This document shows, in pieces, positions 7,399-62,795 of a stretch of DNA of 63,630 bases. A model generated the notes under the pieces. The model ran no database searches. It was given only the letters and a program-made list of their open reading frames with translations, and had not been told where the DNA came from. Position 1 is the stretch's first letter. The number at the start of each line of letters is the position of its first letter. The stretch lies in the NCBI GenBank assembly GCA_017645275.1, contig JAGCPH010000003.1, positions 1 through 63,630 of the forward strand, read 5' to 3'. Both the position numbers and the translations under genes were made by a program. The stretch comes from Bacteroidales bacterium. GTDB lineage: Bacteria; Bacteroidota; Bacteroidia; Bacteroidales; F082.

Positions 7399-9267
7399 CT
7401 ATCTCACGATCTTTCTGGTGACGGTTTTTCCGGAAGTCGTAATACCTTTAACAATATACATACCTTGATTCAGCTCGTTGACGTTGTTTGCGTTGACGAG
7501 CTGTCCGTTTATGTTGTATATCGCGATGATGTTTACAATTTCCTCATATCCAATTTCTGGAACTGAGGTTACTTCTATTAAGATATAGTTTTCGCCGTTT
7601 GGTGTCAAAGCATAGTCCGACTCGCAGCCGTCGTAAACTGCTGTGAGTTTTAATATATAGTCGCCTTGCGCCATTTCCACAAAACATGAAGTGTATTCGG
7701 CTTCAATCTCTATTACTTCTTTGGTCTCATCGCAATAAAGATTGTAGTGGAGAGGTGTGGTCTCAGGTGCATCCCATGAGAGTGTAGTGCCAAACATGTC
7801 GTTGGTATAGGTGTATTCGCCTTGGAAGTTTGTCGGAGCCGGGCATTGCGCCGGTGGGGTAGGAGGAGTGAATCCTTGTCCCATGGTGCCGTCCCAGCCG
7901 ATGTTCTGTCCGTAAAGACCGCTTGAGTCGCTCTTTACCCATGCCACGATATTCTGTCCGCCGTGGAAGCCGGTGCTGTTCTTATCACCAGTCTTGTTAT
8001 ATGTACTTGAACACATCGTGGTGTTCCAGATCTCGTTTCCGTTCATGTCGAAGCCATGTGCCGCCACAGTCGAGGCGTAACTTGACATGCTAATACCTTT
8101 ATGATAAATCACAGAGAATCCTTCGCCGTATTCAAATGCATCGATGCGGTAGCCACCACAAGGGACGGTGCCGTTATCAAGTACGAGGATGCCATCGCCC
8201 CATACCGTATCGCCAAATTGTGTGATACGGTTCATGAAGATCTTGCAATTAATTTGATTTTGGGCGTCGGTCTGCTCATATACCAGTATGATGTCGTGGC
8301 TAATCGGGTCAACGGTGGCATAAGCGCTGATGTAGAAGTTGTCGACGTCGAGTTTGTGTACAGGAGTTCCGTCGGTGTTAGAGAGTGTGTTGGCTCCGAA
8401 TTGGTCGAAGTGGAACACATACACATTGAAACTGCTTCCTGTGCCTCCAGCATGCCAGATGTATGCATAGCCGCCGCCCATGCCATCAGACAGGGCATAG
8501 TGTCGGTATGTCGACTGGAATGTCTTTCCCGACATCAATAAGGTGTGTGGACTGTATTCCGAACCGTCAGGGTTATAGCCTGCCACGTAAATCTCTTTTT
8601 CCTTGTACAAGCCAGCGCCGTTACCAAGTTTCTCATATGTCACAAACACCCGGTTGTCGTTGCTCAAGGTGAGCTGTCCATACATGCAGCTCTTGCCTGT
8701 TGCGTCGGAGATGGTTATCATATTGTTAAGTGCGCCATCACTGTTGACATATTGGACATAAAGCTGAAGGCCGTCGCAGCCGAGAGCCCATACGCCGCCG
8801 TCAGCAGCAGCTATCACCTCACAGCGTGAGTCGCCAAGTCCGCCGAACAGCATCACGCCCTGCTCACCCCAAGCATAGGTGCCGTCAGCATTGATCTTCA
8901 CAGCTATGCTATGTCCTGCCTCCGTAGCAAAACAAGAAACTACTGCGTTGTCTGTGGTGGCCGTCATCGCAAAGCCCTGAGAGTATGATGGCATAGCATA
9001 CTGATGCGAAGGCTCCATGCCATTGACATCCCACTGTGGCTCGCCTGCGAAGTTCAGACGCTGCAATTTCGGAACCCATCCGTTTGAAGCGAACTGTGAC
9101 CATTGCATGTAAGTGTCACCCGTGATAGGGTCGGTGGAAAGATAAATCTCACCGGCATCAGCCGAGGTGTTGGCAATGAATGTGTTATTTACTGGATCGT
9201 TGACCCACTGCGCTTCCACAGTAAGAAACGCTGCCAAAGCAATAATTAATAGGTATAGCTTTTTCAT
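7399..9267 (-). CDS. T9SS-sorted secreted protein with fibronectin III-like domain (paralogue 1)
   Basis: 622 residues. Signal peptide MKKLYLLIIALAAFLTVEAQ. Residues ~20-470 contain repeated short strands (W-x-x-x-LQRLNF, VKINADGTYAWGEQGVMLF, GDGILVLDNGT) typical of beta-propeller or sheet-repeat proteins. A fibronectin III-like domain follows near residues 475-560 (P-x-NFQGEYTY ... TTLSWDAPE ... YNLYCD). The C-terminal ~70 residues form a T9SS type A sorting domain ending in IVR. The whole protein aligns with the neighbouring 631-residue product, so the two are tandem duplicates. It has its own promoter at 9296. No catalytic motif was recognised; an adhesin or surface-binding role is inference. 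Confidence 0.8.
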   Translation of the reverse strand: MKKLYLLIIALAAFLTVEAQWVNDPVNNTFIANTSADAGEIYLSTDPITGDTYMQWSQFASNGWVPKLQRLNFAGEPQWDVNGMEPSHQYAMPSYSQGFAMTATTDNAVVSCFATEAGHSIAVKINADGTYAWGEQGVMLFGGLGDSRCEVIAAADGGVWALGCDGLQLYVQYVNSDGALNNMITISDATGKSCMYGQLTLSNDNRVFVTYEKLGNGAGLYKEKEIYVAGYNPDGSEYSPHTLLMSGKTFQSTYRHYALSDGMGGGYAYIWHAGGTGSSFNVYVFHFDQFGANTLSNTDGTPVHKLDVDNFYISAYATVDPISHDIILVYEQTDAQNQINCKIFMNRITQFGDTVWGDGILVLDNGTVPCGGYRIDAFEYGEGFSVIYHKGISMSSYASTVAAHGFDMNGNEIWNTTMCSSTYNKTGDKNSTGFHGGQNIVAWVKSDSSGLYGQNIGWDGTMGQGFTPPTPPAQCPAPTNFQGEYTYTNDMFGTTLSWDAPETTPLHYNLYCDETKEVIEIEAEYTSCFVEMAQGDYILKLTAVYDGCESDYALTPNGENYILIEVTSVPEIGYEEIVNIIAIYNINGQLVNANNVNELNQGMYIVKGITTSGKTVTRKIVR

Positions 9268-59386: not shown

Positions 59387-59469
59387 CAAAATTTTTACCG
59401 TCGTCCCATAAATGTTGTTCGTTAGTTTAAAAAAGTTTCCAAAAATTTCATTTTATTCCAAAAACTTTG

Positions 59470-59477
59470 TAATTTTG
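59470..59477 (+). promoter_or_regulatory. -7 box for the structured RNA / methyltransferase cassette
   Basis: TAATTTTG followed by C is a perfect TAnnTTTG box, 91 bases before the first helix of the structured RNA and 341 bases before the methyltransferase ATG. No -33 TTG lies at 19-20 bases. Confidence 0.55.
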
Positions 59478-59560
59478 CAAAGTTAACAATGATAATTTTA
59501 AGAAATAGCAAAGTAAAACAAATATAACATATTGTAAAACAAAGCATTAGCTATTATTTC

Positions 59561-59736
59561 GCGTTTAGCCAAGAGCCTCGCAAACTATTTGGAAATAAAC
59601 AATTAGAAATAATATCTGGCAGTCTTCCTAATGGAAGCTCCTACCGACTAAATAAGGCTAAGCTTGCATCAAACAGATGTAAGCATCTTATTTGTCGGTA
59701 GAGGTTTCCGTGCGAGGCCGCCTCTAAGCTAAACGC
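59561..59736 (+). ncRNA. Structured leader or ncRNA upstream of the methyltransferase gene
   Basis: A noncoding 176-nt segment folds by eye into nested helices. P1: GCGTTTAGC (59561-59569) with GCTAAACGC (59728-59736). P2: GCCTCGCA (59575-59582) with TGCGAGGC (59711-59718). P3: CTACCGAC-AAATAAG (59641-59656, one bulged T) with CTTATTT-GTCGGTAG (59687-59701). P4: GCTTGCATC/GATGTAAGC (59662-59670/59676-59684) with loop AAACA. P5: CTTCC/GGAAG (59624-59628/59633-59637) with loop TAAT. All but one pair in P4 are Watson-Crick. It lies in the 5' region of the methyltransferase gene and could be cis-regulatory or an independent RNA. No known riboswitch class was recognised. Confidence 0.75.
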
Positions 59737-59776
59737 AATAAGAGTAAGTCTTGCATCTTTTTCTTTTTGCGTTTGC
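59728..59776 (+). promoter_or_regulatory. Alternative pairing segment competing with helix P1
   Basis: The 3' strand of P1, extended (GC-T-AAACGCAA, 59728-59738), is complementary to TTGCGTTTGC at 59767-59776, ten pairs with one bulged T. This helix and P1 exclude each other. It would abut the hairpin before the start codon. A weak six-pair hairpin (59735-59754) followed by TTTTTCTTTTT (59758-59768) in the loop might act as an attenuator. Confidence 0.5.
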
Positions 59777-59807
59777 GGATTGATAGCATTGCAAAATCTA
59801 TCAATCC
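59777..59807 (+). promoter_or_regulatory. Hairpin immediately before the methyltransferase start codon
   Basis: GGATTGATAG (59777-59786) pairs perfectly with CTATCAATCC (59798-59807) over an 11-base loop. It ends three bases before the ATG at 59811, so it would occupy the ribosome-binding region when folded. Confidence 0.7.
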
Positions 59808-59810
59808 ATT

Positions 59811-60893
59811 ATGGCAGGGAATGGCAATCTTAATGTAGCAAATAAGGCTAAAAAGGATGAGTTTTATACTCAATTGCCTGATATTGAAAATGAATTGCGG
59901 CATTACAAGAAACATTTTAAAGATAAAACAGTGTTTTGTAATTGTGATGATCCATATGAAAGCAATTTCTTCAAATACTTTGCAATGAATTTCAATCAGT
60001 TGGGATTGAAAAAACTAATAGCCACCTGCTATTCGGAGTCGTTTGTGGCTGGAAAACAATTGGCCCTGTTTGACGATTCACCACAAGAAAAGTCAAAGAC
60101 TAGTGTTCCACATAAAATCATAATAACGGAGGTTACAGATCTTAATGGAGATGGAGCGACTAATTTAGCTGATGTTGAATGGTTGATTAAAAATGACAAA
60201 AATGTTCTTACTCGTTTAAATGGTGATGGCGATTTCCGCTCAGATGAATGTGTGGAATTATTAAAAGAAGCTGATATAGTTGTAACAAATCCGCCTTTTT
60301 CATTGTTTCGCGAATATGTTGCTCAATTGATGAAATATGAAAAGAAGTTTTTAATTATTGGTAATGAAAATAATGTAACATACAAAGAGATCTTTCCATT
60401 ATTAATGAACAACACTATATGGCTTGGATGTAAATCTGGATCACAACAATTTGAAGTGCCAATGAGTTTTGAAAAAAACAATACCTATATCAAAGAAGGA
60501 CGCAAATATGCTAAATTTGGAAATATCTGTTGGTTTACCAATCTTGATCATAATAAAAGGCATGATAAACTGGATCTTTATAAGCACTATACACCTGAAG
60601 ATTATCCAACTTATGATAATTATGCTGCTATAGAGGTTGGTAGGGTTTCGGATATTCCTTGTGATTATGACGATATCATGGGTGTCCCCATTACATTTAT
60701 GCAAATATATAATCCAGATCAGTTTGAAATATTGGGAATAACAGATCGGGGGGATGAATATGGTTTAAAAACCAAAGAATACACCAAATATGATACTCCT
60801 AAATATGGAGATTTGAATAGACGGGCAACTTATTGGGTAAATGGTGAGTTGAAACCGACATTTGCTAAATTATTAATCCGCAAGAAACATTAA
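59811..60893 (+). CDS. Adenine-specific DNA methyltransferase, EcoRI family
   Basis: 360 residues. The N-terminal AKKDEFYTQLPDIENEL (~13-29) and FCNCDDPYESNFFKYFAMNF match the EcoRI methyltransferase family. Catalytic motif IV is TNPPF (159-163) in VVTNPPFSLFREYV. Residues 110-121 (DLNGDGATNLAD) fit a calcium-binding EF-hand/dockerin loop. It transfers methyl from SAM to N6 of adenine; M.EcoRI acts on GAATTC but the target here is unknown. The gene is more AT-rich than its flanks. The next gene (DUF262-HNH) starts 3 bp after its stop. No EcoRI-like nuclease is seen. Confidence 0.88.
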   Translation: MAGNGNLNVANKAKKDEFYTQLPDIENELRHYKKHFKDKTVFCNCDDPYESNFFKYFAMNFNQLGLKKLIATCYSESFVAGKQLALFDDSPQEKSKTSVPHKIIITEVTDLNGDGATNLADVEWLIKNDKNVLTRLNGDGDFRSDECVELLKEADIVVTNPPFSLFREYVAQLMKYEKKFLIIGNENNVTYKEIFPLLMNNTIWLGCKSGSQQFEVPMSFEKNNTYIKEGRKYAKFGNICWFTNLDHNKRHDKLDLYKHYTPEDYPTYDNYAAIEVGRVSDIPCDYDDIMGVPITFMQIYNPDQFEILGITDRGDEYGLKTKEYTKYDTPKYGDLNRRATYWVNGELKPTFAKLLIRKKH

Positions 60894-60896
60894 ATT

Positions 60897-61997
60897 ATGG
60901 AAATAAAGTTTACAGAAATCAGCATCCATGACCTTGTGGAAGGTTATGAAAATAATGATGAAAACGGAGTACGCGCTTATGGCGGCTTGTTGGATATTCG
61001 TCCACCATATCAACGCGAATTTATATATAAACCTGAGCAACAACAGGCAGTTATACGTACCGTGGCAAAAGACTTCCCTCTTAATGTGATGTATTGGGCT
61101 AAACGAGAAGATGGTACATTCGAAGTTATTGATGGTCAACAACGTACTCTCTCTATATGTGAATATTTAGACGGAAACTTTTCAGTGGTATTTGAGGGAG
61201 ATAAGAATCCTTATGGTTTTAACAATTTACCAGCCGACCGTCAAAAACGCATATTGGATTATAAACTTACTGTGTATATTTGTACAGGGAGTCCGAGTGA
61301 AAAGCTGGACTGGTTCCGTACAATCAACATTGCAGGCGAAAAACTTACTGATCAAGAGATGCGTAATGCAGTATATGCTGGTAGCTTCGTGACGGAGGCC
61401 AAACGCAAGTTTAGTAAAAGTAATTGCGTTGCATATCAGATGGGGAATCGATATCTTGGTGGCAGCTGTATCCGTCAGGATTATCTTGAAACAGTGATAT
61501 CTTGGATTAATGATGGAAAGATATCAGAATATATGTCGTCGCATCAACATGATCCAAATTCAGATGAGTTATGGCTTTATTTTCAAAATGTCATAAACTG
61601 GGTACAAGCCAAGTTTCCGAAGTATCGCAAAGAGATGAAAGGTGTGGCTTGGGGCGAGCTATATAACGTCCACAAATATGATAAACTTGATGCCAATGAA
61701 CTTGAAAATCGTATATCAAAACTTATGCAAGATAGTGATGTTCAAAGAAAAGCTGGTATCTATGCTTATGTTCTTGATGGCGACGAACATCATTTGGGTA
61801 TCCGTGCTTTTGATGACAACACCAAACGTGAAGTTTATGAAAAACAAAAAGGTGTTTGCCCAATATGTCACAAACATTTCGAGATAGAGCAAATGGAGGC
61901 AGACCACATCACACCTTGGCATCTTGGCGGCAAAACCATCGCCGAAAACTGCCAGATGCTCTGTAAAGAATGCAATAGGAGAAAAAGCGGAAAATAA
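60897..61997 (+). CDS. DUF262-HNH nuclease-like protein
   Basis: 366 residues. The N-terminal DUF262 (ParB/Srx-like, NTP-binding) has PPYQREFIY (36-44) and the hallmark IDGQQRT (78-84). A C-terminal HNH domain occupies 321-363: CPIC (321-324), ADHITPWHLGG (335-345), Asn351 and CKEC (356-359), a zinc-stabilised HNH fold. DUF262 occurs in GmrS, BrxU and SspE, where it couples nucleotide hydrolysis to sensing of modified DNA, usually joined to DUF1524. Here a plain HNH replaces DUF1524. It probably cuts DNA in a modification-dependent way, but this is inferred. Translationally linked to the methyltransferase gene. Confidence 0.85.
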   Translation: MEIKFTEISIHDLVEGYENNDENGVRAYGGLLDIRPPYQREFIYKPEQQQAVIRTVAKDFPLNVMYWAKREDGTFEVIDGQQRTLSICEYLDGNFSVVFEGDKNPYGFNNLPADRQKRILDYKLTVYICTGSPSEKLDWFRTINIAGEKLTDQEMRNAVYAGSFVTEAKRKFSKSNCVAYQMGNRYLGGSCIRQDYLETVISWINDGKISEYMSSHQHDPNSDELWLYFQNVINWVQAKFPKYRKEMKGVAWGELYNVHKYDKLDANELENRISKLMQDSDVQRKAGIYAYVLDGDEHHLGIRAFDDNTKREVYEKQKGVCPICHKHFEIEQMEADHITPWHLGGKTIAENCQMLCKECNRRKSGK

Positions 61998-62028: not shown

Positions 62029-62056
62029 GCAGAGACGATGTGCACATCGTCTCTGC
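62029..62056. repeat. Family-A REP-like palindrome between DUF262-HNH and RAYT genes
   Basis: A perfect 28-bp palindrome (GCAGAGACGATG-TGCA-CATCGTCTCTGC read as two arms). It shares its core with the copies inside the RAYT gene 430 bp downstream. Confidence 0.85.
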
Positions 62057-62172
62057 GTGTTTTACATCCTGGCCTCATTCCATGAATTGTTAATTTTTTT
62101 TAACATTTCTTTCATATTTCTGCAATTTGTGTTAAAAATTGTTAAAAACCAAAAATCAATGTTTTTTTGCTA

Positions 62173-62180
62173 TATTTTTG
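62173..62180 (+). promoter_or_regulatory. -7 box for the RAYT gene
   Basis: TATTTTTG followed by C, 18 bases before the ATG at 62199. It supports that start over the longer open frame. Confidence 0.6.
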
Positions 62181-62198
62181 CAAAAAAATGGTTCCAAT

Positions 62199-62795
62199 AT
62201 GGCAATTTCAGACACAAAATTTCATAATAAATATCGTATTCAATCAACACGTGCAGAATGGCATGATTATAACGGCGGGTTGTATCATGTCACACTGTGT
62301 ACAAAAAATAGAGAACATTATTTTGGAGAAATCGCAGATGGTATTATGCATTTGTCTGAAATAGGGGAATATGCAGATGAACAATTTCGTAATGTCAACA
62401 ATCATTATCCGTATGCAGAAATCCCATTGTTTGTGATAATGCCCAATCATATTCATTGCATAACATTAATCAATGGTGTTGACAATGTGGTAGAGACGAT
62501 GTGCACATCGTCTCTACCACCATCATCGTGCACATCGTCTCTGCCGAATCGTTGGAAATCCGAAACGATTGACAAAAACATGCAAAACATATCGTTGCAT
62601 CGGGGCAAATTATCAACGGTGATAGGTGGTTTGAAACGCGCTGTAACACATTATGCAAACGAAAATAAAATCCGTTTTGGTTGGCAACCGAGGTTTTATG
62701 ACAGTATCATCAAAAACAATGCCGATTTGCAAAATATTGTAAGGTATATTGAAAATAATGTAATCAATTGGAAATCTGATAAATCCTGTTGTTGA
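62199..62795 (+). CDS. REP-associated tyrosine transposase (RAYT, Y1/IS200-like)
   Basis: 198 residues. HUH motif MPNHIHCI (81-88, His84/His86), GLYHVTLCTKNREHYFG start, GKLSTVIGGLKRAVTHYAN, WQPRFYDSIIKNNADL and the catalytic Tyr183 in RYIENNV are all RAYT hallmarks. RAYTs are single-copy, domesticated relatives of IS200 transposases that act on REP palindromes. Residues ~97-116 (VVETMCTSSLPPSSCTSSLP) are the translation of family-A palindromes and lie between the HUH motif and the C-terminal part, where an insertion is tolerated. No IS-type terminal ends flank the gene. It is AT-rich and stands next to the methyltransferase cassette. Confidence 0.9.
   Translation: MAISDTKFHNKYRIQSTRAEWHDYNGGLYHVTLCTKNREHYFGEIADGIMHLSEIGEYADEQFRNVNNHYPYAEIPLFVIMPNHIHCITLINGVDNVVETMCTSSLPPSSCTSSLPNRWKSETIDKNMQNISLHRGKLSTVIGGLKRAVTHYANENKIRFGWQPRFYDSIIKNNADLQNIVRYIENNVINWKSDKSCC
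62487..62545. repeat. Family-A palindromes inside the RAYT gene
   Basis: A perfect 34-bp palindrome (62487-62520; arms GTGGTAGAGACGATGTG and CACATCGTCTCTACCAC) is followed by a second, partial copy (62521-62545, sharing GTGCACATCGTCTCT). The two are read in frame as VETMCTSSLPPSSCTSSLP. Confidence 0.9.

Follow-up and report, generated by a model that had tools for sequence, protein, structure and literature searches.

Within the window (the whole 63,630-nucleotide stretch of Bacteroidales DNA that was analysed), an EcoRI-type adenine methyltransferase gene and an HNH gene stand one behind the other on the forward strand, and ahead of them, between a promoter box and the start codon, lies the element with which we are concerned here. 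The preliminary description had drawn it as 59561-59736; it is larger than that, spanning ~59526 to 59807 and reaching up to the ATG at 59811, and its architecture runs through a promoter box, a conserved leader, P1/P2, a hypervariable P3, an apical P4, a 3' T segment, a terminator-like hairpin and a start-codon hairpin. Its parts, and the genes behind it, are these:

59470..59477, + strand: promoter box TAATTTTG, placed by eye, which we take to be of the Bacteroidetes TAnnTTTG type
59526..59560, + strand: conserved 5' leader, 35 nt
59561..59569, + strand: 5' strand of P1, forming 9 pairs with 59728-59736
59575..59581, + strand: 5' strand of P2, partner 59712-59718
59641..59648, + strand: 5' strand of P3, the hypervariable stem, partner 59694-59701
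59662..59684, + strand: P4, the apical hairpin (arms 59662-59670 and 59676-59684, loop 59671-59675)
59694..59701, + strand: 3' strand of P3, from the window fold, covariation and the comparison of near-identical copies
59712..59718, + strand: 3' strand of P2, from the window fold and covariation
59728..59736, + strand: 3' strand of P1, its end overlapping the 5' side of the extended T stem
59733..59772, + strand: T hairpin, U-rich on its 3' side, which a loose test scores as terminator-like
59750..59757, + strand: T segment CTTGCATC, which shares its sequence with part of the P4 5' arm and can base-pair with 59676-59683
59777..59807, + strand: hp2, a 10-pair hairpin drawn by eye, ending 3 nt short of the start codon
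59811..60893, + strand: EcoRI-type adenine methyltransferase gene (PF13651, E 4.1e-143)
60897..61997, + strand: GmrSD_N-HNH gene, named REase_II (type II restriction enzyme) by PADLOC

Directly behind the restriction genes there is also a Y1-transposase-like ORF (62139-62795; PF01797, E 4.9e-6).

Is there really more structure here than one should expect, as had been claimed? There is: 59561-59736 folds with an MFE of -74 kcal/mol, against a mean of -38.65 (sd 4.24; z -8.3) for 200 dinucleotide shuffles, none of which was as stable. The helices had been given as 9, 8, 15, 9 and 5 pairs, and the fold is much as described, but the exact counts were slightly off: the upper stem has runs of 9, 8 and 8 pairs with an apical hairpin of 9 pairs, and P2 has 7 pairs in the window fold, or 10 if one counts 3 more past a bulge. 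When the leader and the 3' part are included (59544-59810), the MFE is -98.6 against -58.6 +/- 4.7 for shuffles (z -8.5), and P1 gives way to a helix of the leader and to a longer 3' hairpin, the extended T stem, so that the predicted fold of 59561-59736 is one among at least two. The leader itself may take part in further pairing: 59547-59551 can pair with 59657-59661, in another fold the region of 59554-59559 pairs with GAAAUAAUA, and across copies a leader:flank helix of at least 7 nt occurs in 69% of own and 56% of swapped combinations, all of which is suggestive only; in a tabulation of the leader:flank helix, at least 7 of 8 pairs form in just 3 of 22 combinations.

The structure is real, and it is the homologues that carry this point. 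Among 99 aligned copies (4372 cells), in an alignment that was fitted to the structure and that favours its own pairing figures, 90.9% of cells pair against 69.7% in shuffles, 46 of the 47 pairs show changes on both sides, and double-change cells number 980, against 320 +/- 14 in shuffled and 126-212 in slid versions. A MAFFT alignment of 26 copies, on which the structure was defined from a single row, gives 118 such cells against 52 +/- 6 shuffled and 28-56 slid. The preliminary description had made its case hang on covariation in homologues, and covariation is present, with 96.5% of cells paired in P1, 97.7% in P2, 87.4% in P3 and 95.8% in P4 (99 copies); together with the shuffles, it confirms the structure at 59561-59736. 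There is, in addition, a pseudoknot, Px, which joins a side of P3 with the P2-P1 junction and which is paired in 95.5% of cells, with 1 of its 6 pairs changed on both sides (26 clade-B copies). G.U cells outnumber A.C cells among the aligned copies (445 vs 98), and therefore it is the plus strand that is the RNA.

P3 behaves in its own way. It is paired in most copies, with changes on both sides at 11 of 11 pairs (99 copies), yet its letters are replaced between copies that are otherwise nearly identical: L033 and L050 share 97.4% of their core and 25% of P3, and in the class of 0.92-0.95 core identity P3 identity is 0.5 or less in 10 of 18 pairs of copies. At a core identity of 0.98 or more, the P3 5' strand is kept in 9 of 9 pairs. 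The idea that P3 serves as a guide to the flanks of its own copy was rejected, 26 of 166 8-mers being found there against 23.6 for the 8-mers of other copies.

How widely is this RNA distributed? A DNA search found a match in 16 of 60 genomes, the window's own included, and of the 99 genus genomes 34 contain the 35-nt leader when at most 3 mismatches are allowed, and 0 the reversed control. A covariance model built from 26 copies with the window left out (R1) picks up the window's copy with a score of 52 bits (E 5.1e-9) and has matches in 52 of the 99 genus genomes at E<=0.01. At E<=1e-3, a second model, R2, built from 99 copies, has matches in 33 of the 295 genomes scanned from the order; these represent 26 of 183 genera, and 4 of the 33 belong to the window's genus. 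In a sample of the phylum, with the cut-off at E<=1e-4, it matches 3 of 296 genomes, including that of the window; the same layout was seen by eye in 25 loci from the R2 search. Two genomes of the same class and another order (L332, L333) hold copies with, by eye, the same P4/T complementarity. A pattern scan of genome contigs returned 46 stretches, titled as uncultured Bacteroidales or Bacteroidetes and many of them from ruminant or horse gut, and one exact leader pattern gave 0 matches in viral contigs. Thousands of first-look candidates had hinted at high copy numbers in some genomes of the order, a notion dropped when 374 kb of contigs, chosen for each holding one copy, gave only 6 matches below E 1e-4. 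This is an RNA family of some size in gut Bacteroidales, and one whose main body goes unrecognised in these Rfam scans.

Indeed, the Rfam scans found no credible match up to E 10 in 59400-59900 and left the main bodies at 33 further loci unmatched, which rules out a known Rfam family for the main body in the window and at those loci; a literature search turned up no account of this RNA. (Over the whole window a single match passes the Rfam threshold, a partial tmRNA at 1-252.) The claim of an uncatalogued RNA in the leader of an EcoRI-type methyltransferase gene thus holds, on strong covariation, the Rfam result and the PF13651 match downstream (E 4e-143). A motif by the name of D12-methyl has been reported before DNA methyltransferase genes, and one copy of the new RNA (L294) likewise precedes a D12 methyltransferase; the preliminary description had brought up the motif, but Rfam scans of the window and of L294 gave no match of that name and lend the suggestion no support. 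Two catalogued cis-regulatory RNAs do occur directly behind copies of the new RNA, at the position of hp2: DUF805 (RF03081, E 2.7e-12) in L308, at 1711-1776 and 2675-2743, and DUF805b (RF02914, E 2.5e-9) in L262, at 1398-1433. They differ from it in covering only 35-68 nt after the main body, at 2 of the 33 loci scanned, with the main body matched by neither, and the window's own hp2 matches neither in the scan of 59400-59900; what has been catalogued under these two names may be the 3' part of some longer element. To the Rfam copy used, the main body is a new family; as a kind, the element belongs with the cis-regulatory leaders, among which it stands out for the breadth of unrelated restriction-modification types that follow it and for having a hypervariable stem.

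That breadth becomes plain when one looks at the genes behind the RNA. The next ORF is co-directional in 111 of 124 copies, with 9 scored as opposite (for some of which another caller finds a co-directional ORF), 1 with none and 3 at contig ends, and the ORF starts at most 120 nt away in 100 of 102 plain co-directional cases. By Pfam, EcoRI methylases make up 56 of 108 distinct first ORFs, followed by glycosyltransferase 2 (4), GDSL lipase (4), acyltransferase 3 (3), D12 methylase (2) and GtrA (2), these counts covering the best 25 of 102 families; single cases include Tsp45I (L031, with an N6_N4 methylase behind it), Eco57I (L234), MmeI (L289), N6_N4 (L281) and a ResIII-helicase-HNH protein (L116). 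The RNA is, then, not tied to one methyltransferase, since restriction-modification, glycosyltransferase, acyltransferase and lipase genes all follow it. The earlier link to a methyltransferase leader is supported, with amendments: an EcoRI-type gene does lie downstream in the window, but other kinds of gene follow other copies, and a few copies have no nearby co-directional gene. At one locus (L115, L128, L105, L106), RNAs of clades C, A, D and D stand ahead of what is by eye the same HNH subtype, and because of this, and because the cargo is so varied, we have rejected control specific to one methyltransferase.

At ten loci (L242, L243, L248, L250, L251, L253, L255, L256, L257, L263), the RNA lies upstream of a conserved basic protein of ~105 aa, HTH-like by eye, without a Pfam match for L253, and beside a MoxR-like gene; this is possibly a housekeeping copy. 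As a universal partner of the RNA the protein was rejected, close orthologues (>=89% identity) being present in only 15 of the 99 genus genomes.

Can such a leader work as a switch? Against mononucleotide shuffles, which keep base composition alone, three features are enriched: a TAnnTTTG box, which 66 of 99 copies have at -180 to -10 relative to the model start (6.7 in shuffles), a T hairpin with a U-run in 69 of 124 by a loose test (6.5), and a hairpin at most 12 nt from an ATG in 96 of 116 (17.1). The T hairpin occurs in 46 of 66 copies with EcoRI-type first ORFs vs 23 of 58 others. Within the RNA, T competes with the 5' arm of P4 for the P4 3' arm, and the two mutually exclusive helices are both conserved by covariation, the P4 3' arm:T helix being paired in 100% of cells with 4 of 9 pairs changed on both sides in the aligned test, which covers 26 clade-B copies and is the stronger one. 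A free search for T pairing finds at least 8 nt in 36 of 55 distinct arms vs 381 of 1737 swapped ones, and fewer than 6 nt in 10 of 124 copies, some of them through a P4 missed by the script. On average, the duplex of the P4 3' arm with T (-11.7 kcal/mol) comes close to P4 (-13.0) and equals or exceeds it in stability in 56 of 100. The window folds, for their part, contain either P1 or the extended T stem, never both.

Given several mutually exclusive pairings, we propose a switch; that the RNA is transcribed, that it attenuates and that a trigger exists is inferred. A promoter ~85 nt upstream of P1 would drive an RNA that folds into P1, P2, P3, P4 and pseudoknots, in which the two arms of P4 pair with each other or, alternatively, the 3' arm pairs with the T segment downstream. 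With P4 closed, T would be free to form the terminator-like hairpin, and transcription would stop before the methyltransferase gene; with T captured by the P4 3' arm, or with the 5' side of the extended T stem captured by P1, readthrough would follow, and hp2 at the start codon could add a translational check. The genes so controlled would for the most part belong to restriction-modification systems. Attenuating riboswitches and antitermination leaders work through competing pairings and a terminator hairpin, and the new RNA resembles them in its competing pairings and in the hairpin, terminator-like by the loose test, that precedes a start codon; it differs in coming without a known ligand or partner (the genes downstream suggest no ligand), in its one hypervariable stem and in its cargo, exchanged accessory genes of many functions. 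We read the RNA, tentatively and at a little under even odds, as a new family of cis-acting structured attenuator leaders that travel with restriction-modification and other accessory genes. The leader would move with such operons and swap among them, and it could set their expression after acquisition.

Several observations speak against an attenuator. No common metabolite or pathway unites the gene set downstream. The T hairpin is missing in 55 of 124 copies by the loose test, and a stricter terminator scan of the window lists P4 in place of the T hairpin. The window prefers P4 (-11.4 kcal/mol) over the T pairing (-8.4). Finally, a TatD locus has four copies in which, by eye, a promoter box is present; the gene that follows is on the opposite strand, and no co-directional one is near. 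These last copies, the RNA's own promoter box and the terminator-like 3' end in 69 of 124 copies would all suit a small RNA that acts in trans, has a promoter and a 3' end to itself and lies before genes because it shares islands with them and not as their cis control. We think this unlikely, though worth taking seriously, since the next ORF is so regularly co-directional and close by, and since a hairpin is set against the start codon.

A cassette boundary has also to be considered, for at shared loci the RNA and its cargo seem to have been exchanged. In the OsmC-rpsL interval, the window genome and G010 are alike through the promoter region and into the start of the leader, then diverge until a palindrome past the operon (~62030-62057, behind the restriction genes), at which homology resumes; G099, whose contig starts within this stretch, matches as well. 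The window has a clade-A RNA there with methyltransferase and HNH genes; in G099 the RNA is of clade C, and the methyltransferase (EcoRI-type by eye) and the HNH gene are that genome's own; G010 has a very diverged RNA, an ORF without a Pfam match and then an N6_N4 methylase (this RNA was missed by R1 and by filtered R2 and scored 21.4 bits, E 2.6e-5, in an unfiltered 1-kb search). In two other same-locus pairs, what lies between hp2 and the final ~60-75 bp of the HNH gene is unrelated cargo, and one of them (L111) holds two cargo-plus-tail units (tails at 7741 and 8611). The HNH tail has 9 matches in the genus, 5 without an intact HNH gene upstream, and 4 of these break within ~4 codons, which in sequence looks like a preferred junction. 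Tail remnants are seen behind unrelated genes at both L111 sites and in L100, L399 and L397. Tandem arrays in L098 (15483-19922), L099 and L101 carry the 35-nt leader alone, or with a short 5' piece of the RNA, ahead of YhcG/DUF1016 nuclease and RhuM genes.

All of this, from the three different sets of RNA and restriction-modification genes at the window's locus to the leader-only arrays, would fit the end or exchange site of a mobile cassette, bounded on the left by leader, RNA and hp2 and on the right by the final ~70 bp of the HNH gene. The exchange could come from such a cassette system or from homologous recombination, but recombination in shared flanks could yield the same junctions, the tail-only places L397 and L399 have no leader within 1.5 kb, and strand bias and covariation favour a function for the RNA; a cassette end is in our judgement unlikely, though again worth taking seriously. 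A bolder combination, in which the RNA is the addressed left end of mobile restriction or defence cassettes (the HNH 3' tail being the other end), its switch silences new cargo until a signal comes and P3 gives each copy its address, is a long shot. Retron RNAs have outer inverted repeats, and those of the new RNA and its hypervariable stem resemble them, but a retron-like msr-msd RNA served by a reverse transcriptase is very improbable indeed, as there is no reverse transcriptase in the neighbourhood of the window's copy (the preliminary description was right in this) and the sole RVT_1 match of the 82%-complete window genome is on another contig, nowhere adjacent to the RNA.

If the attenuator reading is right, what would such a leader be for? 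How restriction-modification enzymes are timed in a new host is an old question, to which controller proteins are one known answer. For the EcoRI and Eco29kI systems, short antisense RNAs from reverse promoters are another (PMC3874152). Like them, the new RNA would place a type II restriction-modification operon under RNA control; theirs are short and antisense, whereas ours is a folded sense leader common to unrelated systems. If one sense leader does serve EcoRI-, D12-, Eco57I-, MmeI- and Tsp45I-type systems, it would give defence and surface genes alike a portable layer of control by RNA. As for the company that such operons keep, nucleotidyltransferase and HepT-like (MNT-HEPN) genes stand directly upstream of the RNA, methyltransferase and HNH gene in L128 (9040-9691) and, by eye, in L105 and L106.
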